64,000 nt of DNA from Hyphomicrobiales bacterium (GTDB lineage: Bacteria > Pseudomonadota > Alphaproteobacteria > Rhizobiales > Beijerinckiaceae): assembly GCA_027484655.1 (NCBI GenBank), contig JAIXSM010000015.1:1-64000 (forward strand), written 5' to 3'. Below the pieces are notes generated by a model that saw only the letters and a program-made list of their open reading frames with translations, ran no database searches and was not told the DNA's origin. This document shows positions 49,731-63,610 of the stretch, piece by piece (the first letter of the stretch is position 1; every line of letters starts with the position of its first letter). The translations under genes and the position numbers were made by a program.

Positions 49731-50753
49731 TCATTCAGACGCGCCCATGATGCGGGCCACAGCCGCCTTGATATCTGGCGGCGGCGATCCGTGCTCCATG
49801 TAGAGCGCCGCGAGTTCGGCCCCGGTCTTTGGACTGAGGTCGAGAGCACGCCGTTTCGCCTCCACGATGAACTCCTCGCTTTTCACCATGGCGTCAAAGG
49901 CGGCGCGCAGGATTTCGACCCGCTCGACAGGCACGCCAGGCGCCATCACCAACGCGGTGCCAAATTCAGCGGAAAGCGCAACGAAGTCCCACAAGGCGCG
50001 CTGCTTGGCGTCGGAAATGAGATCACGCACGCGCGGCACGCCTTCGATCGGGACATGAGCGAAATCCATGCCAGCGAGAACGCGCACCTTATTCTCGCGC
50101 AACCATGCAGGATGCAAACTGGACAAAGTGGAAAGTGCGACGGTCGTCGCGCCGACCTCGCCTGACTCCATCGCAATCATCGTTGGCCCGGTACCGGTAT
50201 ATCCGAGCACTATCTTCAGTTTTGTACCAAGAATTTCGTTCATCAACATCGGGCCGGCGGTCGTAGTTGACCGCCTCGCCGTCGCAGCAAGTGTAATCTC
50301 ACGGCCTTTCAAGTCGTCAATATCCTTGACCCCGGACGTATGCCAGGCCACCAGAACGCGCGAGAAGTCGCTCATTCGGCCGATAAAGTGAAACTTCGAT
50401 GCGTCAAAGCGCACGGCGTTCGGCTCGATATGCGGCGTGACGAAGAAATTCGGGATCGCGACGGCCATGACGGTTCCGTCAAGCGGAGCGGCGTTAGCCA
50501 TGTAGTTGATCGAATTGATGCCGCCCCCGCCGGGCATATGCTCGATGACGACGGGTGGAGCACCGGGAATATGACGGCTAAGGTATGTCGACAACAGCAG
50601 CGCATATGCACTGAAGCCTCCGCCCGGGGCCGCCCCTATCATCAACCGGATCGTCTTGCCGCGATAAAAGTCGCCAGATTGCGTCTGCGCGGCGGCGATA
50701 ACCGGATTGAACAACAGAGCGATCACAAGAAGTAATGGCGGTAATCTTCTCAT
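49731..50753 (-). CDS. tripartite tricarboxylate transporter substrate-binding (TctC/Bug-family) protein
   Basis: Signal peptide, 'DFYRGKTIRLMIGAAPGGGFSAYALLLSTYLSRHIPGAPPVVIEHMPGGGGINSINYM'. Confidence 0.88.
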   Translation of the reverse strand: MRRLPPLLLVIALLFNPVIAAAQTQSGDFYRGKTIRLMIGAAPGGGFSAYALLLSTYLSRHIPGAPPVVIEHMPGGGGINSINYMANAAPLDGTVMAVAIPNFFVTPHIEPNAVRFDASKFHFIGRMSDFSRVLVAWHTSGVKDIDDLKGREITLAATARRSTTTAGPMLMNEILGTKLKIVLGYTGTGPTMIAMESGEVGATTVALSTLSSLHPAWLRENKVRVLAGMDFAHVPIEGVPRVRDLISDAKQRALWDFVALSAEFGTALVMAPGVPVERVEILRAAFDAMVKSEEFIVEAKRRALDLSPKTGAELAALYMEHGSPPPDIKAAVARIMGASE

Positions 50754-50993
50754 CCAACCCTCCTCCTGACACCGCCTGCGGAACGCGCGCCCGCATCCGG
50801 TGGGCAGCGGAGCCGCGCTCGCATTCGAGGTTTGGCCACGCCAAACTTCAGCGGATGTGTTTCTTCCTCCCAACGCCGGCCCCTGCCGCGTGATTGCGGC
50901 AGCAGACGTCCGAGGCTTTTTACCCCTCTGCGTTGGCTAAGTTTAGCAAGGACGCGCGCGCTCCGCAGACCTTCGCGTGGTCGTTTGAGCTGC

Positions 50994-51887
50994 TTACGGC
51001 CGCGGGCGCAGGACGTCGCCGGGTTTTGGCGCTCCGACCAGCGCGAGCTTCGCCCGGGCGACGCTGAACTTCGGCGTCACGCGTATGATCTCGACCTCGC
51101 CCAAAAGGGATTCGGCCTCGCCCAATGTCTCCTTGGTCACGGGGTCGATAAGCGCCGCGCCCACCGAGAACAGTTGATACACGTCGCCCACGGCCAGCCC
51201 CGGGCCTTCGCCGCGATTGACGAAGATGTCGGGGCCCTGCGCCTGAATGACCTGCAGCGGGAACAGCGCGCCGACAATGGAAGCGGTGAACTTGGCGCCA
51301 AGATCGGCGCTGAGAGCCCGCCAGGCCGCGTGCTCAACCACGGCCGCGTCGTTCTCGCCGGTCTGCCGCGCGGCGCCGGCGCCGCCCCGGCGCAGTTCGG
51401 CCTCGCGCGTCACCTGATAGACGATCTCGCCGGACGTCGTGTCGAGCACCTTGGCGCTCACGGTTGCGGAGCCCGTGGCGGAGAACACGAACTGGCCCGG
51501 GCGCATTTCGTTCGGCAGGCGTTGCACGCTGACGCTGACGTGGGAGATGAGTGGCTGGACGATGTACTGCACGTTGTTCAGCCGTCCGGCTTCCGCGGCG
51601 TTGCCAAGCGATTGCTCACCAGCGGCGAACTCCTGCTCGATGCGCACTGTCCGCAGCACTTCCTGCGTGCGCTCGAACACCGAGAACCGGCGGCTGGCGC
51701 GGATACCCTCCTCGATCTGGCGGGCGAGTTCCTGAGCGTCGAGTTTTCCAGGCTGGAAGCGGGCGCGCACGGCCTCGGCGACCAGCGGCTGAAACACCGC
51801 CAGCGAGGGGCGGTCCTGCGCCGCCGCCGGCGCTACGGCGGCCAACAGCAGCGCGAGCGCAGAAAACAAGTGTGCGGGTTTCACCAT
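50994..51887 (-). CDS. CsgG-like exported protein (gene 5 of operon)
   Basis: Signal peptide; 'LAVFQPLVAEAVRARFQPGKLDAQELARQIEEGIRASRRFSVFERTQEVLRTVRIEQEFAAGEQSLGNAAEAGRLNNVQYIVQP'; overlaps upstream gene by 7 nt. Confidence 0.7.
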   Translation of the reverse strand: MVKPAHLFSALALLLAAVAPAAAQDRPSLAVFQPLVAEAVRARFQPGKLDAQELARQIEEGIRASRRFSVFERTQEVLRTVRIEQEFAAGEQSLGNAAEAGRLNNVQYIVQPLISHVSVSVQRLPNEMRPGQFVFSATGSATVSAKVLDTTSGEIVYQVTREAELRRGGAGAARQTGENDAAVVEHAAWRALSADLGAKFTASIVGALFPLQVIQAQGPDIFVNRGEGPGLAVGDVYQLFSVGAALIDPVTKETLGEAESLLGEVEIIRVTPKFSVARAKLALVGAPKPGDVLRPRP

Positions 51888-53104
51888 CGGGGTTTGCTCG
51901 GGCTTGGAGGGGGTGCGGGACGCGATTGGGCGGCGGAGCGCGGCGCCTCAGCCCGCAAGATCAGGTCGGCGCCGTCCGGCAGCGCGCCGGCGATGAGTTC
52001 TCCGTAGGACAGCTTGGGATCGACCCGCATGACGCGGATCGTCGCGACATGGGTTTCCGCGCGGCCGAGCGGCTCTTTGGTGTAGGGATCGAACATCTCG
52101 TCGCCGAGAAAGTTCGCCGTGTAAGTCTGGCCGACGCGTACCGTGTCGCCGCCCTGGTTGATGGTGACGTAACGGCCCGCCGTGACCTGCAGCACGCGCA
52201 GCGGGAAGATGCCGCTGGTGACCTTCTCGCCCAGCGCCGCAGCGCCGGCGGCGAGCGCGGCGGCGACGTCGCCCTGCGCTTCCACGCCCGCCTGCCCCGC
52301 CCATTTGATCTGGCGGGTCGCGACGTCGAGGATCGAGAAATCGAGGACGATGGCTGTCCCGGCGTTGACCACGCGTTCGCCCGTCACAGGCAGCGTGCGC
52401 TCGTTCGAGAAGCTTTCGAGGCGGCGCAGTTTTGTGAGCAGCATGTAGTCGGCGCCCAGCATCTGCCCGATGCGCACGGTCTCGGCCAAGGGAACGTCGG
52501 CGCTGCGCAGGAGCGCCATTTCGCTGCGGTAAGCTGCCTCGTTCTCACGGTCCAGCACGGCGAACCGGCGCGTCTGCACGAAGTAGGACGTGATCGCGTC
52601 CCGCAGCGCCGCCACGTCGGCGGGCTGCGCCCCGGCGAGGTTCTGCGGCGGCATGGTGACGAGGCGCCGGCGATCCTGCGTGGGCAACCCGGGAGCCGCG
52701 AAGCGCTCGACGCTGACGGTGAGGCGGGCGAGAAAGCCCCTGCCCTCCTCCTCCACCGCATGAATCTGATAACTGCGAACGACCCCGCCCGAAGCTTGGC
52801 GGATCTCCTGCTGGAAACCTTCCGAAACCGTAGTGCGGGCGCTGCCCTCGTCGATCACCGAGGACAGGCTCTGTTGCGCGCGGCGCGCCGCCTCGAGGCG
52901 GACGCCGGTAACCTGCTCAAGGGCGGACACGAGGCCTGCGGCCACAGCCTCCTGCCGGGTGGCGCCGACGCCCTGCGCCTCGACGGTGAGGGTCTCGGCC
53001 ATGGCGGGGCGAGCGCTTGCGAGCAGGACCGCGACCGCGACCGCGCCGGCCAGCGCCCGGACGTGCATCCGCAAGCGACGGGCGCGCGGCATTTGCCTGT
53101 TCAT
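51881..53104 (-). CDS. CsgG-like exported protein with FlgT/LPP20-like N-terminal domain (gene 4 of operon)
   Basis: 'LTVEAQGVGATRQEAVAAGLVSALEQVTGVRLEA' then 'RDAITSYFVQTRRFAVLDRENEAAYRSEMALLRSADVPLAETVRIGQMLGADYMLLTKLRRL'. Confidence 0.7.
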   Translation of the reverse strand: MNRQMPRARRLRMHVRALAGAVAVAVLLASARPAMAETLTVEAQGVGATRQEAVAAGLVSALEQVTGVRLEAARRAQQSLSSVIDEGSARTTVSEGFQQEIRQASGGVVRSYQIHAVEEEGRGFLARLTVSVERFAAPGLPTQDRRRLVTMPPQNLAGAQPADVAALRDAITSYFVQTRRFAVLDRENEAAYRSEMALLRSADVPLAETVRIGQMLGADYMLLTKLRRLESFSNERTLPVTGERVVNAGTAIVLDFSILDVATRQIKWAGQAGVEAQGDVAAALAAGAAALGEKVTSGIFPLRVLQVTAGRYVTINQGGDTVRVGQTYTANFLGDEMFDPYTKEPLGRAETHVATIRVMRVDPKLSYGELIAGALPDGADLILRAEAPRSAAQSRPAPPPSPSKPRW

Positions 53105-53116
53105 GTCGCCTCCACT

Positions 53117-54424
53117 TTAGAAGTCGGACGTGGTCGAAGAGGCGCCGGAGCGCACCGGAGCCCCTGCGGGCGCGCCGACAACGCCAGGCCGCGCCGGCGG
53201 GTTGGCGACGCCCCTCGCCGCGCGCTCAAGCGCCTGTCCGGCAATGGCTGCGTCGTCGGCGTTGGAACGCGACCAGACGACGGCAACCGTCGTCATCAGC
53301 GCACCGGACCACGGGTGCTTCCCGCGCCAGGCCTTCACCTCCGAGACGCCGCTGAGGTTCAGCGTCTTGGCGACGGCCTCGATCTTCAGATCGTAGGCGG
53401 CTGCGTTGAAGGAGCGCGCGCTGTCGTCCGTCTCTCGGTAGGTGAAATCCACGTTGTCCTTGTCGCTGCCCGCTATGCGCTCGCCCACGAACCGCTGGAT
53501 GGCGGCGATGGCGCGCGTGCGGGCGCGGGTGTTGTCGAGGCTCGCCTGGCTCGAGGCAGGCACGCTGCCGAAGCCGACCACGAGCCGCTGCCCATGCTCG
53601 TTGGTCCACACGCGGGCGCCGGAGGTCACGGCCATCCAGTCGGCCTGGGCGCGATCCAGTTCGCTGAGGCGGGCCGCAAGCGACGCGTCGGGCGCGGCGG
53701 GCGGAAGCCGGAACCCGGGATTGATGATCGACTCGCCAATCTGCGCAAGCTTCAGGCTCCAAACGAGCCCTGTCAGCACGGCGTACTTGCCATCGACTGC
53801 GTTCGGCCCTTCGCACTGCACGGCTGTGAACGCGCCGCTGGCGAAGACCCGCGCAGAGGAGGCGATGCGCTCGCGCAGGCGTGTCTGGATCTTGAGGATC
53901 TCCTGCTTCTTCGCATCTTCGCTCCGCCCCGCGCCATCCCAGTTGGGAATGTATTTGCGGATCTCGTTGTCGAGGGCTGCGCCGGTGAGGACGAGCGTCT
54001 TGTCCGCCACGGAAAGCTGCGTGGCCGCGTCCTTCAGGAGTGGCGGCGGCTCATCGCCGCCGGCCATGAACGCGTCGAACGAACGCGAGGATGAGATTTC
54101 AAGGCCGATAAACTGGGCAAGCGAATTGCGCGCGTTCAGCTCGGCGATTGAGAAGGCCGCGTCACGCGCAGCAATCCATCGCGACGCATCGGACTTCTCC
54201 GCATTCACCTCGCCCTGCCCGCGCGCCACGAGCCGGAAAGATCCGTCGGGCCGCGCGTTCTTGCCTTCCGTCAGCTTTTCGGAGGCGAGCCAGTCGGCCC
54301 AGCACTGCTCCACATTCGTGGCCAAGCGCGCGGCGCCGGCGAGGTTGGCGTCCTGCGCGAAGGCCCCGGACGCGGCCAGCCCCGCCGCTGCTGCTACGAT
54401 GACTTTGGCCAGTGACGTTTTCAT
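53117..54424 (-). CDS. uncharacterised exported protein (gene 3 of operon)
   Basis: Signal peptide 'MKTSLAKVIVAAAAGLAASGAFAQ'; 435-aa ORF, 12 nt from the next gene; no family confidently recognised. Confidence 0.7.
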   Translation of the reverse strand: MKTSLAKVIVAAAAGLAASGAFAQDANLAGAARLATNVEQCWADWLASEKLTEGKNARPDGSFRLVARGQGEVNAEKSDASRWIAARDAAFSIAELNARNSLAQFIGLEISSSRSFDAFMAGGDEPPPLLKDAATQLSVADKTLVLTGAALDNEIRKYIPNWDGAGRSEDAKKQEILKIQTRLRERIASSARVFASGAFTAVQCEGPNAVDGKYAVLTGLVWSLKLAQIGESIINPGFRLPPAAPDASLAARLSELDRAQADWMAVTSGARVWTNEHGQRLVVGFGSVPASSQASLDNTRARTRAIAAIQRFVGERIAGSDKDNVDFTYRETDDSARSFNAAAYDLKIEAVAKTLNLSGVSEVKAWRGKHPWSGALMTTVAVVWSRSNADDAAIAGQALERAARGVANPPARPGVVGAPAGAPVRSGASSTTSDF

Positions 54425-54469: not shown

Positions 54470-56581
54470 TCAGCGCCGATCGACCTGTCGGGGAGCGACG
54501 GCCTGGCGCGGCGCCGCGCGGGGGGCGGCCGTCCGAGGCGCGGCCATGCGGGGCGTTCCCGCGCGCGACGTCACCTGAGGAGCCATGCGCTGCCCCTGAA
54601 CACGAGGCGCCATCTGGGGCGCCATGCCTCCGCTGGGGCCACCGCGGCCAGCCACCGCGGGCGCAGCCTGTGCGGGCATCTGGCCGGGGCGAGCGTCGGG
54701 CGCCGCGCCGTTCGGCGCGACGATCCTCGGCGGCGCGGCCATAGGGGCAGGCTGGCCGCTGCCCGGCCCGGCGCGCGGCGTCAGCGGCTGGAAATTGGCG
54801 CCGGCGGGCGCCGGCACAGGGCCAGAGCCCAAGGCCGCAGGCGCGGCGGCGGGCAACGGCCGGCCGACCGGCTGGAAGTTGGCGGCGGGAGCCACAGCCT
54901 GCACAGGTACGCCGCTCGGCGCGACGATCCTCGGCGGCGCAGCCATAGGCGCAGGCTGGCCGCCGCCCGGCCCGGCGCGCGGCGTCAGCGGCTGGAAATT
55001 GGCGCCGGCGGGCGCCGGCGCGCCCCGCACCGGCACAGGGCCAGAGCCCATGGCCGCAGGCGCGGCGGCGGGCAACGGCCGTCCGACCGGCTGGAAGTTT
55101 GCGGCGGGAGCCACAGCCTGCACAGGCACGCCACCGACCCCGCGAACCTGAACCGGCCGATAACCGACAGGCGCAGCCCAGGCTGGGCGAGCGGCCGGCA
55201 GCGATACGCGGGGCAGTGAACGGGCGGCCGACACCGCAAGGGGCGCCGCCGTCGCTGCGGCGACAGCCGCGACCGCGACCGGCGCCCAGGCCGGCATGTT
55301 GAGGCTGGGCGCCCGAGGAATAAACTCGACCGGCATGCTGGCGCTCGAGGCGATCATCTCGACGCCGGCGACCGGCGGCGGCAGCCCGGCGAACGAGACC
55401 GGCGCGAACGCCGACGGGGGCTCCATCGGCGCGCCCATACGGGCCAGACGCTGACGGGCGACGGACACGTTGCCGCCGTCCGGATAAAGGGCCAGGTACG
55501 TCCAGAACCCATCGGGCTGATTGCGCCGCAAGGCGCCGGACCACACCTCCGCCTCGCGGCGAACCGCCAGATTGTACTGCACGGTGGCAGCCGCCTCATC
55601 CTCGGGGAAGCGCACGAGGAACGCCTGATAACCTTCGATCGAGTCCGTAGCGACGACCTTCCGGAAGGCCTCCTCGCGGCTCAGTGAGGCAAGCTCGATC
55701 TTCTCGTCGGCCTTGTGCGCCAGCGTGGGCAAGGTCTGCCCCGGCGCGGGCGGGAAGAACGCGTAGCCGAGATCCGGAAGACGGTCAGAACTCCACGGGT
55801 ACTGGCGGTTCTGCGTTTCCTCGAACACGCGCGTGCGGGTGAAAGCGAAGAACTCACCGAACGAGGCGACCGGCCGGTCGATGGCGTCGAGAATACTCTT
55901 CGCGAAGATTCCCATTGGCGGCTGCGGCTCCGGCAGCGTGCGCCCCGGGCTCTGGTTGAACGCGATGAGAAAGCCCTCCGGCGCGTCCATCTTCGCAAGG
56001 CCGGGGCTGAACTCCGGATCGCTCGTCAACCGCTCGGGCGGCGCGGCCGCGTCAACCACCAGAATACGCGCGCGCGCCGACACAAGGCGCAGGCTCTCGA
56101 CGATATCCCGCAGGCGCAGGCCATTGAGCACCACATCCGCGCTCCGCGCCACCGGAGTGCCGACTGGCAGCAGATAATTCTCGCCATTGATCTGGGCGAC
56201 GCGCCCCGACAGATAAATGAAAATCGTCTCCGCCCCACCCGCCAGAGTCGCCCGCTCTGACAGGTCGCGCAGTCTCGCGCGAATGGACGCCTGATCGAGA
56301 TCGGATGCGCCGTTGGTGTGAAAACCGCGGTCTCCCAGTGCGCTCTCGATGTATCCCGCATCACCTGTCCCGGTGACGAGCCGCGCGCCCGGATAATCCG
56401 ACTGTCCAATAACCACAGCGAAGCGCCGCTCTCCCGCGCCGCCAGGCACTGCGCCAATCTCCTGCGCATGGCCGGCTGTGGCCGACAGCGCAGCGACGCA
56501 GACGATGCTAGCGCCCAATGCGCCAAGGATGCGATCAAGAATGCCCATCGCCAAATCCCCCGCCATCGAACGCCACGTCAC
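54470..56581 (-). CDS. caspase-fold (peptidase C14-like) protein, predicted catalytically inactive, with Pro/Ala/Gln-rich duplicated tail (gene 2 of operon)
   Basis: 'RRFAVVIGQSDYPGARLVTGTGDAGYIESALGDRGF', 'IFIYLSGRVAQINGENYLLPVGTPV', 'ARILVVDAAAPPERL', 'GLAKMDAPEGFLIAFNQSPGRTLPEP'. Confidence 0.82.
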   Translation of the reverse strand: MTWRSMAGDLAMGILDRILGALGASIVCVAALSATAGHAQEIGAVPGGAGERRFAVVIGQSDYPGARLVTGTGDAGYIESALGDRGFHTNGASDLDQASIRARLRDLSERATLAGGAETIFIYLSGRVAQINGENYLLPVGTPVARSADVVLNGLRLRDIVESLRLVSARARILVVDAAAPPERLTSDPEFSPGLAKMDAPEGFLIAFNQSPGRTLPEPQPPMGIFAKSILDAIDRPVASFGEFFAFTRTRVFEETQNRQYPWSSDRLPDLGYAFFPPAPGQTLPTLAHKADEKIELASLSREEAFRKVVATDSIEGYQAFLVRFPEDEAAATVQYNLAVRREAEVWSGALRRNQPDGFWTYLALYPDGGNVSVARQRLARMGAPMEPPSAFAPVSFAGLPPPVAGVEMIASSASMPVEFIPRAPSLNMPAWAPVAVAAVAAATAAPLAVSAARSLPRVSLPAARPAWAAPVGYRPVQVRGVGGVPVQAVAPAANFQPVGRPLPAAAPAAMGSGPVPVRGAPAPAGANFQPLTPRAGPGGGQPAPMAAPPRIVAPSGVPVQAVAPAANFQPVGRPLPAAAPAALGSGPVPAPAGANFQPLTPRAGPGSGQPAPMAAPPRIVAPNGAAPDARPGQMPAQAAPAVAGRGGPSGGMAPQMAPRVQGQRMAPQVTSRAGTPRMAAPRTAAPRAAPRQAVAPRQVDRR
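54712..55132. repeat. Imperfect direct duplication of ~205-215 bp (54712-54914 and 54916-55132) within the tail of the caspase-like gene
   Basis: Two near-identical blocks starting tcggcgcgacgatcctcggcggcg and ending cacagcctgcacaggYacgcc. Confidence 0.9.
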
Positions 56582-58491
56582 AGGGAGCCGACGAACGCGT
56601 TCGCGCCGTCAAAGCGAACCTTGAATGTCTTGCGGTCCTTGAAAGCCTCATACAAAGCGTCAACCAGATCTTCCGGGTCGAAGCGGTTCGGGTGCTCGAA
56701 CCGGATCTCGACCGACTTGTCGTTCGTGCCGGCAGGATCGACGCGCGTTTCAACGCCCGAGAGCGCTTTGGAGATCACATCGCGCAGCATGCGGATCTGC
56801 TGCCGATCCCGCTGGGTCATGCCCGCGATCTTCACAGCGTACTGGGACGAAGACCGCACACTCGCCGCCTGTGCGCCGGGAGCCGCCTTCTGCGAAGCCG
56901 CGATGGTGAGCAGACGCGCGCTGATGTCCCGGTGCACCTGCCGCGCCAACTCCGTTGCCTGCATGGGCAGCAACTGGCCGCGGCGCGCCTCCTTCGGCGT
57001 CGCCGTATCGCGCGGCACGCGTTTGGTATTGAGCACAGGAACGTTCGCAAGCTCCACACGGCCCCCGGGGTTCTTATTGTTGTCGAGGAGCTTCACGAGG
57101 GCGCGCAGGGTATAGTTTTCAAATCGCACCCCCCCCGTGGAGCCGACATCTGCGTGCTGGTCGTCATACTCAATCGATAGGATGTTCAGAAAGTAGTCGA
57201 CCTCGCCCCGCGCAATCGCCTCCTCCTCGCTATTGCGCGCGATGACACGGTAGCCTGCATTAATGAACTCAGCACGTATACTATCGATCAGGAAGCGGGT
57301 GGCAGGATCTTCCTTCTCCTCGTAGCCCAGTATGAAGCGAAACGCGCGATCGGCGCCGCTGACCGTCGCGGTCATGAGCTTCTGAACCTCGCCCTTTAGA
57401 ACCCCTACTTTAAAGATCCCGTCGAGGTTGCAGTTGAAGAGCTGCCCCACCTTTGTGCAGTTGAGCTTCGTATCGGACGTGAAGTATATCGCACGGAACT
57501 TATCAAGCGACGACTCGGCAGACTTACGGAACTGCCGGCCAACGTCGCCATCGGCCTGCGACCCAATCAATTCACGCAGTTGCTTTTCAAAAACCTCATA
57601 AACCGCGTCACGCTGCGCGACCGATTGACGGCCGTTGCTCGCCTTCCCCGATACGCGGACTTCGCCACGCGCTAGCATCTGGGCAGCTTCCTCGCGCCGA
57701 CGCTCCATCTCCATATGATATGCGGCGACGAGGTCGCTGGCCGAACGATCAAGCGCGATCAGTTCCGGCTCGGAGGCATTAGGGCCTCGACGCGCGGACT
57801 CGATTCGCTTGCGCAACTCTGCAGCGCGTTGCTGGTTGAACTTGTTGTCGGGCGACAGGAGAGGCTGCAGTTTGCGGATGGCGCCGTCAGCGATCTGCAC
57901 CCGGCGGGCTTCTGCCTGAGCCGCGAGCCGGGATGTCCGCGCTGCAGGCGTCTCGACCGCCACCTTGCCTATCTCGCGACCCGTGAGAAGTGCAGTCGCG
58001 GCTTGGTCCGCGGTTAGCGGCATCGATTGAGCCGAAGACAACACAAACACCTCGTCGCAACGCGTGCGCCCGACATCGAGCGTGCACTCGACGTTCTTCA
58101 TAAGATTGCGCGAGGATATCGGCTGGCAACGGCCAAAGATGGACGCAAGTTGCGGATCTGAGGCCGGTAGACCGTTGGAGATCAGCGCCTCTATGGACTG
58201 TCCGTTGCGCTGAAGCAACTGATCGGCACATGCACTAACGTAAGGATCGATACCAGCCCATGTTTTGCGCAACTCCACCATCCGCGCCTGCTCGGCCGCG
58301 CGGGCCGCGCGCTCCTGGGCCTGGATAGCACGCTGCTGCTCTTGGATCGCTTCTTGCTGCCGGCGCATGATCTCCTGGCGTTGCGCCTCATGTATAAGCA
58401 GATCGAAAATATTTTGAGCTTGCGCGGAATTGGGAGCCACGAATAATAAAGGATAGATTGCCAAGAAAAAAAGCTTCAATATTAAACTCAC
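56578..58491 (-). CDS. uncharacterised exported 637-aa protein with N-terminal coiled coil (gene 1 of operon)
   Basis: Signal peptide 'MSLILKLFFLAIYPLLFVAPNSAQAQ' then Q/R/A coiled coil; 4-nt overlap with the caspase-like gene. Confidence 0.75.
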   Translation of the reverse strand: MSLILKLFFLAIYPLLFVAPNSAQAQNIFDLLIHEAQRQEIMRRQQEAIQEQQRAIQAQERAARAAEQARMVELRKTWAGIDPYVSACADQLLQRNGQSIEALISNGLPASDPQLASIFGRCQPISSRNLMKNVECTLDVGRTRCDEVFVLSSAQSMPLTADQAATALLTGREIGKVAVETPAARTSRLAAQAEARRVQIADGAIRKLQPLLSPDNKFNQQRAAELRKRIESARRGPNASEPELIALDRSASDLVAAYHMEMERRREEAAQMLARGEVRVSGKASNGRQSVAQRDAVYEVFEKQLRELIGSQADGDVGRQFRKSAESSLDKFRAIYFTSDTKLNCTKVGQLFNCNLDGIFKVGVLKGEVQKLMTATVSGADRAFRFILGYEEKEDPATRFLIDSIRAEFINAGYRVIARNSEEEAIARGEVDYFLNILSIEYDDQHADVGSTGGVRFENYTLRALVKLLDNNKNPGGRVELANVPVLNTKRVPRDTATPKEARRGQLLPMQATELARQVHRDISARLLTIAASQKAAPGAQAASVRSSSQYAVKIAGMTQRDRQQIRMLRDVISKALSGVETRVDPAGTNDKSVEIRFEHPNRFDPEDLVDALYEAFKDRKTFKVRFDGANAFVGSL

Positions 58492-60235: not shown

Positions 60236-60772
60236 CTACAAGCTCTCCTGGGTTCTTTCGGCAGCCTTGCGCAAGTGCGCTTTCAATTGGGAGAGCGCCT
60301 TTTCGATTGGGTTGAAGTCGGGGCTATAGGGCGGCAGGTAGCGCAGTTCGGCTCCGACCGCCTCGATGGCCGCTCGAACGGCTACTCCCTTATGTGAGCC
60401 GAGATTGTCCATCACGACGATGTCGCCTCCACTCAAGGTCGGAATAAGAACCTGCGCGACATAAGCCTCGAACGCTTCACGGTTGATGGGGCCGTCGAGG
60501 ACGAGCGGCGCCACCATGCCCGTTATGCGCAGGCCTGCCACAAAGGTCGTCGTTTTCCAGTGCCCATGCGGCACGCCCATGCGCAAGCGCTCGCCCCGCC
60601 CACAGCGCCCACGGCGGCGCGCCATGTTGGTGGAGGTCCAGGTCTCGTCGGTGAAGACGAGACGCTCGGAGTCGAGGTCGAATTGGAAGTCGAACCAGTT
60701 CTGTCGGCGCTTCAGGACGTCCGGCCGATCCTGCTCCGTGGCGTGGGCAGTCTTTTTTCCACGTGATCCCAT
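60236..60772 (-). CDS. IS630 transposase ORF B (DDE part)
   Basis: '[24 protein letters not shown]', '[46 protein letters not shown]'. Confidence 0.9.
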
Positions 60773-61097
60773 TGCGGGCGAAGAAGCGCCAGAGTGCGCC
60801 GATGGAGAAGCGATGGCCCTGCACGGCGATTTCTGCCTGCAATTCGACGAGGGTGATATCGCACGTGCGATCTACGATCCCGAGGATGAGGTCGCGGACG
60901 GCTTCGATGCGCTGCGAGCGGCGGTCGCCGCCTTGCGCCGCCAACTTTGGCGTTCCGGCATCACGAGCGCGAGCGCACCACCACACGGCGCTCGCTGCCC
61001 CCACGCCGAAGCGCTCCGCCGCTTGCCGACGCGACATTCCGCTTTCGACAGCGGCAACAACAGGTTCACGCAGGTCGAGCGAGAGAGGCTTCGTCAT
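60477..61097 (-). CDS. IS630 transposase ORF A (HTH part)
   Basis: '[40 protein letters not shown]...[19 protein letters not shown]'; tail after GITWKK is out of frame relative to ORF B. Confidence 0.85.
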
Positions 61098-61902: not shown

Positions 61903-62442
61903 CTACTCATTTATAATGTTACACATCTTTCTCTTTGGTAGTCTACGAAAACCGCTCGACGACGTCATCGCCCCACGATCTGCTTGGCCTTCTATGCTAA
62001 TCTTGATCTCCCTGTCGGCCAGCGCCTTGATAAACTCGATCGACGTAAATTGACTGCCCTGATCCATGTTGAAAACTTCGAGCGCAACATCCCGGGCCAA
62101 CGCCTCCTCGACGGCCGCAACGGAGGAGTCGCCCTCCAGCGTGCTCGGCACCCGCCAGGCGAACACCCGGCAAGTGAACCAGTCCATGCCGGCCGCGAGA
62201 TATATGGAGCCGCGCGCCATGGGGAAGTAATTAACGTCCATCCCCCAGACCTGATTGGGTCGATTGACGGGAAAGTTGAGCACAAGGTACGGACAGATTC
62301 TGTGCCAATGGGCTGGTTTGAGGTGTTCGGCTTGCGATACGGCGTGGTCATACTCATCCGCTTCAGCAGCGTGGCAACGGGCGGACGCCCCACCTTGACG
62401 CCCTCCTTTACGGCGACCCCTGCCCCAGCCGGCTTCCCGCAA
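61903..62442 (-). pseudogene. IS3-family transposase (OrfB, rve core) remnant
   Basis: 'NQVWGMDVNYFPMARGSIYLAAGMDWFTCRVFAWRVPSTLEGDSSVAAVEEALARDVALEVFNMDQGSQFTSIEFIKALADREIKISI' then loss of the conserved C terminus. Confidence 0.82.
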
Positions 62443-62566
62443 AGGGCAGGTCCGTGGCTATAAACTGCACCTGGAGGCGACAGTCCGACTGCGCGGATTG
62501 AAATGTCCTGACCAGCGGCGCATTATTAGTCAGACGAAGGAATCACACATACGGGGAGCGAAAGCG

Positions 62567-63610
62567 ATGGCGCGTACAGGCATGCTTTTGGCGCTTGTCG
62601 CGGGAGTCCTGGTGGGCGCCTGCCCGGCGCAAGCCCAGCCTGCAGACAGTTTTTACAAGGGTAAGACGCTCATCATTTACAGCGGCCTTTCGGCAGGAGG
62701 CGCCTACAGCGCCTATGCCCGCCTGCTTGAGCGTCACATCGGTCGGCATATTCCCGGCAATCCTGTCACGGTTATGAAAGTGATGGAGGGCGCCAACGGC
62801 CTTACACTCGCCAACTGGCTCTATAATGTCGCGCCGAAAGATGGCCTCGCTATGGGCATTTTCCACGAGCGCATCGGGCTGGAGCCAGTTGTCGCGCCAC
62901 AGGGCACGCTGTTTGACGGACGCAAGTTCGCATGGATTGGCAGCGCCGCGAAGCAGACGAGCGTTTGCTTCACCCGCGCGGGATCGCCGGTCAAAACGGT
63001 GGCCGACGCGCAGCGAATCGGAATCCCGGTCGGCGCAAGCGCCGCCGCCGGATCAGACTCCGTCATGCCGCGCATGATGAATACAATGCTGGGAACCAAG
63101 TTCCAGATCATACAAGGCTACGGCGGAGCAGATATCCTGCTCGCCATTGAACGCGGCGAGGTGGAAGGACGTTGCGGCTTCGGCTGGGCAAGCTTGAAGA
63201 CGACGCGGCCCGACTGGGCTGAGCAGAGAAAGATCAACCTCCTCGCGCAGTTTTCATACAAGCCACATCCGGATCTCAAGGACGTGCCGTTGATGATGGA
63301 CATGGTCTCAAAGCCAGAAGATAAGCGCGCGCTCCAGCTCGTGTTCGCCACACAGGAAATGGGCCGTCCATTTACGGCGCCTCCGGGAACGCCCGCTGAT
63401 CGGCTTGCGGTCCTGCGCAAGGCGTTCATTGCTGCTCTTGAGGATCCGGCTTTGGTGGCCGAAGCGCAAAAGCAGGGATTGGAAATCGATCCGATCACCG
63501 GTGAGGAGATAACCCAGATCCTTCTCGATCTTTACGATACGCCAAAAGAAATCGTCGATCGCGTAAACGGCTTTCGCACCGGTCGCTCTGACGAAAAATC
63601 CGTCAGGTAG
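62567..63610 (+). CDS. TctC/Bug-family tripartite tricarboxylate transporter substrate-binding protein
   Basis: Signal peptide, 'DSFYKGKTLIIYSGLSAGGAYSAYARLLERHIGRHIPGNPVTVMKVMEGANGLTLANWLY'. Confidence 0.9.
   Translation: MARTGMLLALVAGVLVGACPAQAQPADSFYKGKTLIIYSGLSAGGAYSAYARLLERHIGRHIPGNPVTVMKVMEGANGLTLANWLYNVAPKDGLAMGIFHERIGLEPVVAPQGTLFDGRKFAWIGSAAKQTSVCFTRAGSPVKTVADAQRIGIPVGASAAAGSDSVMPRMMNTMLGTKFQIIQGYGGADILLAIERGEVEGRCGFGWASLKTTRPDWAEQRKINLLAQFSYKPHPDLKDVPLMMDMVSKPEDKRALQLVFATQEMGRPFTAPPGTPADRLAVLRKAFIAALEDPALVAEAQKQGLEIDPITGEEITQILLDLYDTPKEIVDRVNGFRTGRSDEKSVR

Follow-up and report, generated by a model that had tools for sequence, protein, structure and literature searches.

A divergent pseudo-orthocaspase with Arg-Ala at the dyad positions, encoded in an apparent operon of exported-looking proteins in a Hyphomicrobiales bacterium

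The window, i.e., the whole stretch of 64,000 nucleotides analysed here, encodes on its minus strand a protein that is, as judged from its sequence, a proteolytically dead orthocaspase (pseudo-orthocaspase), in which Arg and Ala replace the His-Cys dyad of active orthocaspases and C14 proteases. We consider it moderately probable that this protein would be an exported binder of basic peptides and would join the other proteins of its apparent operon, as an adaptor, within a complex of the cell envelope.

Substituted dyad, caspase fold, and retained pocket

The open reading frame (ORF; 54470 to 56581, minus strand) encodes 703 aa from a GTG start at 56581, with alternative ATG starts at 56566 and 56548. 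The GC content at its codon positions is coding-like, and this, together with a family profile score of 201 bits and a model with a pLDDT of 89, indicates that the ORF is no chance reading frame. The caspase p20 domain (55745 to 56431, minus strand) is defined by alignment, by the model, and by a Pfam match to Peptidase_C14 (PF00656) at residues 52 to 267 (E=2.5e-16; 60.5 bits against a cut-off of 21.4). In the preliminary description, both catalytic residues were claimed to be substituted, and re-reading of the codons bears this out: in the His-motif region of the minus strand, IYLSGRVAQINGENYLLPV, which includes YLSGRVAQ, the codon CGC at 56203 to 56201 places Arg in the column of MALT1 H415, and in the Cys-motif region, ILVVDAAAPP, the codon GCC at 56047 to 56045 places Ala in the column of MALT1 C464, H415 and C464 being the catalytic residues of MALT1. 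In this respect, the protein falls under the published usage of the term pseudo-orthocaspase, in which a p20 has one or both dyad residues replaced (PMC6426788).

The 703-aa ORF contains a single Cys, at residue 28, within a probable Sec signal peptide (56465 to 56548, minus strand) recognised by eye from MGILDR, a hydrophobic stretch, and AGHA/QE, which suggests that the gene product would be exported. The mature protein is thus without Cys, so that catalysis as a cysteine protease by any residue pair is excluded on sequence grounds, and the alternative His/Cys pair that was named as a refutation of the substituted dyad does not exist in the active site. Among the 62 aligned sequences, the p20 part is devoid of any Cys in 60. 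It is extremely improbable that the protein is still a hydrolase through other residues, e.g., a Ser or Thr near the old active site, as the intact fold and pocket might allow, because Ala occupies the nucleophile position and Arg that of the general base, and Cys is absent from the mature protein.

A search of PDB sequences with the window protein alone returned nothing meaningful, whereas a profile built from it together with 24 relatives matched MALT1 paracaspase (PDB 3v4o) with E=2.9e-5 and aligned the Arg column with H415 and the Ala column with C464. The AlphaFold2 model, which covers 55415 to 56464 and was built from the 62 aligned sequences (pLDDT 89.1; pTM 0.89), has a predicted caspase-hemoglobinase fold; it superposes on MALT1 with a Z score of 25.1 over 210 residues at 2.7 Å, and on caspases with Z scores of 22 to 23. 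Of the checks proposed for the substitutions, the alignment places Arg and Ala at the dyad positions, and the model has the caspase fold. Furthermore, two Asp residues are retained, one (56360 to 56362, minus strand) aligned with MALT1 D365 and lying in the NDA motif of orthocaspases, and the other (56051 to 56053, minus strand) aligned with MALT1 D462; both are present in nearly all family members. In MALT1, D365 and D462 line the S1 pocket (PMC4357240), and the acidic pocket that is also kept in cyanobacterial pseudo-orthocaspases has been read as able to accommodate basic substrates (PMC6426788).

Orthocaspases, as opposed to metacaspases, have no p10 domain; Pfam gives C14 alone for the whole protein, and the part beyond the p20 is modelled as a helical repeat followed by an Ala/Pro-rich tail. 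The TPR-like helical region (55415 to 55738, minus strand; pLDDT 89.6) has no Pfam TPR match, and its best Foldseek matches, BamD and YbgF, are not significant (E of about 0.7 to 1). This repeat is kept in 145 of 149 pseudo-orthocaspases, and that of the window protein scores 92.6 bits against a profile built without it, compared with 66.2 bits for the best intact-dyad protein. The tail (54473 to 55432, minus strand; 320 aa, 46% Ala plus Pro) overlaps the end of the helical region by a few residues and contains no tandem repeats detectable by TRF.

A dyad-less family and the place of the window copy

Among 61 related genomes, the closest relatives, which belong to the same genus and share 32 to 40% identity, include none with the catalytic Cys, which is replaced by Ala and once by Ser; at the His position, they have mostly Tyr, Phe in two, and His in one. 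Of the more distant C14 proteins, all but a few have His-Cys. Dyad frequencies were taken from a pattern-free sample across the Hyphomicrobiales, since the pattern-based sample of related loci is skewed to Tyr and Phe; in the order-wide sample, the dyad-less pairs are Tyr-Ala (29), Leu-Ser (7), Tyr-Gly (4), Gln-Ala (3), His-Ala (3), and others, and 34 sequences are intact. In a tree of the quick kind, root-free and computed with the dyad columns masked, every dyad-less row lies on one side of one branch, the support of which is 99% by SH-aLRT once two long rows are removed. This is consistent with a dyad-less clade spanning the Hyphomicrobiales and having one ancient origin. Pairs of close relatives have dN/dS values of 0.016 to 0.23, i.e., they are under strong purifying selection, which argues that the dead domain is maintained in the family. 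Recent decay of an active protease, which intact-dyad orthologues would have indicated, is rejected for the family, since the closest relatives are all without the Cys and nearly all without the His.

Scored against profiles that were built without it, the window protein reaches 201 bits with that of the pseudo-orthocaspases and 127 bits with that of the intact-dyad proteins, and it falls within the pseudo side of the tree. The tree alone is not decisive for its membership because a placement outside the clade is not rejected by the AU test (p=0.448); by profile score and helical repeat, the window copy is assigned to the pseudo family. It is the most divergent member in the alignment, with an end branch of 1.87, where the median is 0.28, and it keeps 57 of the 75 columns that are conserved at 95% or more (24% changed), whereas all other sequences keep at least 91.7% of them. 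The Arg-Ala pair is also present in five further sequences from the Hyphomicrobiales (Methylocapsa sp. S129, a Roseiarcus MAG, a Bradyrhizobium MAG, and two further MAGs), two of which lie at the conserved locus of the family. The tree was at first read as indicating an independent event for the window Arg; that reading was dropped, as the tree test does not reject a grouping of the window copy with the remaining Arg-Ala rows (p=0.49), and the pair may have either a shared origin or a convergent one, both of which are compatible with this result.

The same genome encodes a second, less divergent pseudo-orthocaspase, with Tyr-Ala, on contig C32. The C32 gene adjoins a histidine kinase gene and a serine-carboxypeptidase-like gene, the neighbours found at the usual locus of the family in many same-genus genomes (L031-L053); uracil-DNA glycosylase superfamily and 3-hydroxyisobutyrate-dehydrogenase-like genes are also seen there. 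Since the C32 copy occupies this usual locus, the window copy is an additional member that has been relocated or duplicated, and 36 genomes of the genus yielded no orthologue of it. In the comparison with syntenic orthologues suggested in the preliminary description, no syntenic orthologue of the window copy was found.

These features bear on the main rival to an adaptor role, namely relaxed constraint on the window copy, according to which the family would be functional and the Tyr-Ala copy on C32 would do the work, and the window copy would be a redundant paralogue drifting to loss, with Arg as a product of drift. The long branch, the changes in 24% of the strongly conserved columns, the second copy at the conserved locus, and the lack of an orthologue in the 36 genomes all speak for such drift. 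However, the ORF is intact over 703 codons with coding-like GC at codon positions, the pocket Asp and family-invariant residues are retained in a confidently modelled fold, the four co-oriented neighbours are intact with overlapping or close ends, and Arg-Ala recurs in the five other sequences, including the two at the conserved locus. We hold drift to loss to be unlikely, if still worth serious consideration.

A further alternative is that the dead protein pairs with or titrates an intact orthocaspase, as c-FLIP(L) does with caspase-8. Two Hyphomicrobiales genomes, G330 and G243, each encode an intact and a pseudo p20 in one ORF, so active and dead p20 domains can work on one chain elsewhere. 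The fused ORFs (G330, L276:2774-6160, minus strand, 1129 aa; G243, L279:2482-5862, minus strand, 1127 aa) begin with an intact His-Cys p20, which a charged stretch resembling a coiled coil separates from a Leu-Ser pseudo-p20 that has a helical repeat and a Pro-rich tail of the same kind. By contrast, no intact C14 domain was found in the genome of the window, the assembly of which is rated 100% complete, and in 18 of the 22 other family-bearing genomes of the genus, no further C14 domain was found. With the genome of the window included, 19 of 23 family-bearing genomes thus have the pseudo-enzyme without another C14 protein, which argues that it works without an active caspase and against a simple role as a caspase regulator. 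Such a role is very improbable and, for the genome of the window, already mostly refuted, save for the case of an active caspase that is unassembled or highly divergent.

A tie to anoxygenic photosynthesis has also been proposed, in that pseudo-orthocaspases are held to mark phototrophs in Alphaproteobacteria (PMC6426788), and the genome of the window has two reaction-centre subunit genes. However, in a survey of Photo_RC (PF00124) across 37 same-genus genomes, 17 of the 23 family-bearing genomes lack a reaction-centre gene and the family is missing from two of the eight phototrophs (Fisher p=0.68, or p=1.0 when the comparison is restricted to genomes with a completeness of 90% or more). Contrary to the proposal for Alphaproteobacteria, the published link is not supported within this genus, and we assign it a very small probability as an account of the window protein.

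An apparent operon and a possible envelope adaptor

The pseudo-orthocaspase gene is the second of five co-oriented genes between 58491 and 50994; neighbouring genes overlap or are separated by no more than about 46 bases, and the five form one apparent operon. All five encoded proteins start with a signal-peptide-like sequence, as seen by eye. The upstream gene (56578 to 58491, minus strand) encodes 637 aa, and its stop overlaps the GTG start of the pseudo-orthocaspase gene; the C-terminal half of this protein has relatives in two same-genus genomes. Downstream lie genes for proteins of 435 aa (53117 to 54424, minus strand), with neither a Pfam or NCBIfam match nor any relative among 60 related genomes, 407 aa (51881 to 53104, minus strand), with weak Pfam matches to LpoB (E=4.8e-5) and CsgG (E=0.0034), and 297 aa (50994 to 51887, minus strand), which is weakly CsgG-like/FlgT_M-like (Pfam CsgG, E=6.5e-5) and the gene of which overlaps that of the 407-aa protein. 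The 407-aa and 297-aa proteins are similar to each other.

The five-gene arrangement was found nowhere else among the genomes sampled. Relatives of the 637-, 407-, and 297-aa proteins occur together without a caspase in two same-genus genomes (G026, L192:510-6551; G028, L193:4626-10732), which suggests that the CsgG-like cassette varies in make-up and includes the caspase only here. The first gene of these related operons of exported-looking genes is an unassigned one with a Tat-like leader. The five operon proteins gave no PADLOC match for anti-phage defence, viral homologues could not be confirmed, and megablast found no plasmid match of the operon; promoter and terminator predictions gave no more matches than in shuffled sequences. 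Near the operon, an IS630-type transposase in two overlapping frames, with its DDE_3 and HTH parts, and a fragment of an integrase core (60236 to 61097 and 61903 to 62442, minus strand) are signs of mobile-element activity. TctC-type solute-receptor genes flank the region (49731 to 50873, minus strand; 62498 to 63610, plus strand), the second scoring below the Pfam cut-off.

The residues, the fold, the family membership, the absence of Cys, the retained pocket residues, the selection on the family, and the gene order are shown by the analysis; from these, export, peptide binding, participation in a complex, and any function of this particular copy are inferred. The caspase fold and the two Asp that bind a basic P1 residue are retained, and binding of basic peptides is therefore most likely kept: the old S1 pocket of the p20 would most likely hold a basic segment of a partner and leave it uncut, and the TPR-like helical region and the long Ala/Pro-rich tail would add binding surface for other partners. 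Furthermore, the apparent operon with four exported-looking proteins, two of them CsgG/LpoB-like, makes it probable that the window protein would join these proteins in a cell-envelope complex and act there as an adaptor. Weighed in favour of this role are the dyad mapping, the retained Asp, the modelled fold, the absence of Cys, the selection on the family, the helical repeat, and the tight gene order; counted against it are the long branch, the 57 of 75 conserved columns, the operon arrangement seen nowhere else, and the Arg beside the acidic pocket, which could fill or neutralise it. The earlier suggestion of scaffolding or binding in place of proteolysis is supported: no protease pair is present, and a binding or scaffold role would fit the acidic pocket, the family selection, and the helical repeats. 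A variant that we regard as doubtful is a lineage-specific envelope complex with the CsgG/LpoB-like proteins that recruited the dead caspase, with Arg as a plug or gate and the old pocket as a peptide-recognition module.

Comparison with known systems

Among solved structures, MALT1 paracaspase (PDB 3uo8, 3v4o, 8v4x) has the closest fold and the same S1 Asp residues; unlike the window protein, with which it shares 16% identity, MALT1 is an active Arg-specific protease. The eukaryotic dead caspase folds of c-FLIP(L) and Trypanosoma brucei MCA4 have a regulatory or scaffold role (PMC6426788); both act with active caspases, none of which was found in the genome of the window. Synechocystis SyOC also has a dead p20, being the pseudo-variant that is the single orthocaspase of its genus, and its deletion increases tolerance of oxidative stress (PMC7889975), so pseudo-orthocaspases can have phenotypes. 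Unlike the window protein, the pseudo-orthocaspases of Synechococcus and Synechocystis, which are of a different lineage, have Tyr-Ser or Tyr-Gly.

The Rhizobiales pseudo-orthocaspases published in 2019 comprise 561 sequences with long C-termini and the pairs Tyr-Ser, Tyr-Ala, Phe-Ser, Gln-Cys, and His-Ala (PMC6426788). Like them, the window protein has both dyad residues replaced, a C-terminus without assigned domains, and the acidic pocket; Tyr-Ala, among the commonest pairs in that study, is the commonest among the relatives examined here. Unlike them, it has Arg-Ala, which is not among the pairs named in that text, and a CsgG/LpoB-like operon, and it is more divergent than the other members sampled. 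Rhizobium-related bacteria are rich in pseudo-orthocaspases, for which the literature found gives no function or partner; the window copy has candidate partner genes adjoining it. The window protein is thus a divergent addition to a published family, new in its gene neighbourhood and in a dyad pair that the published text does not name.
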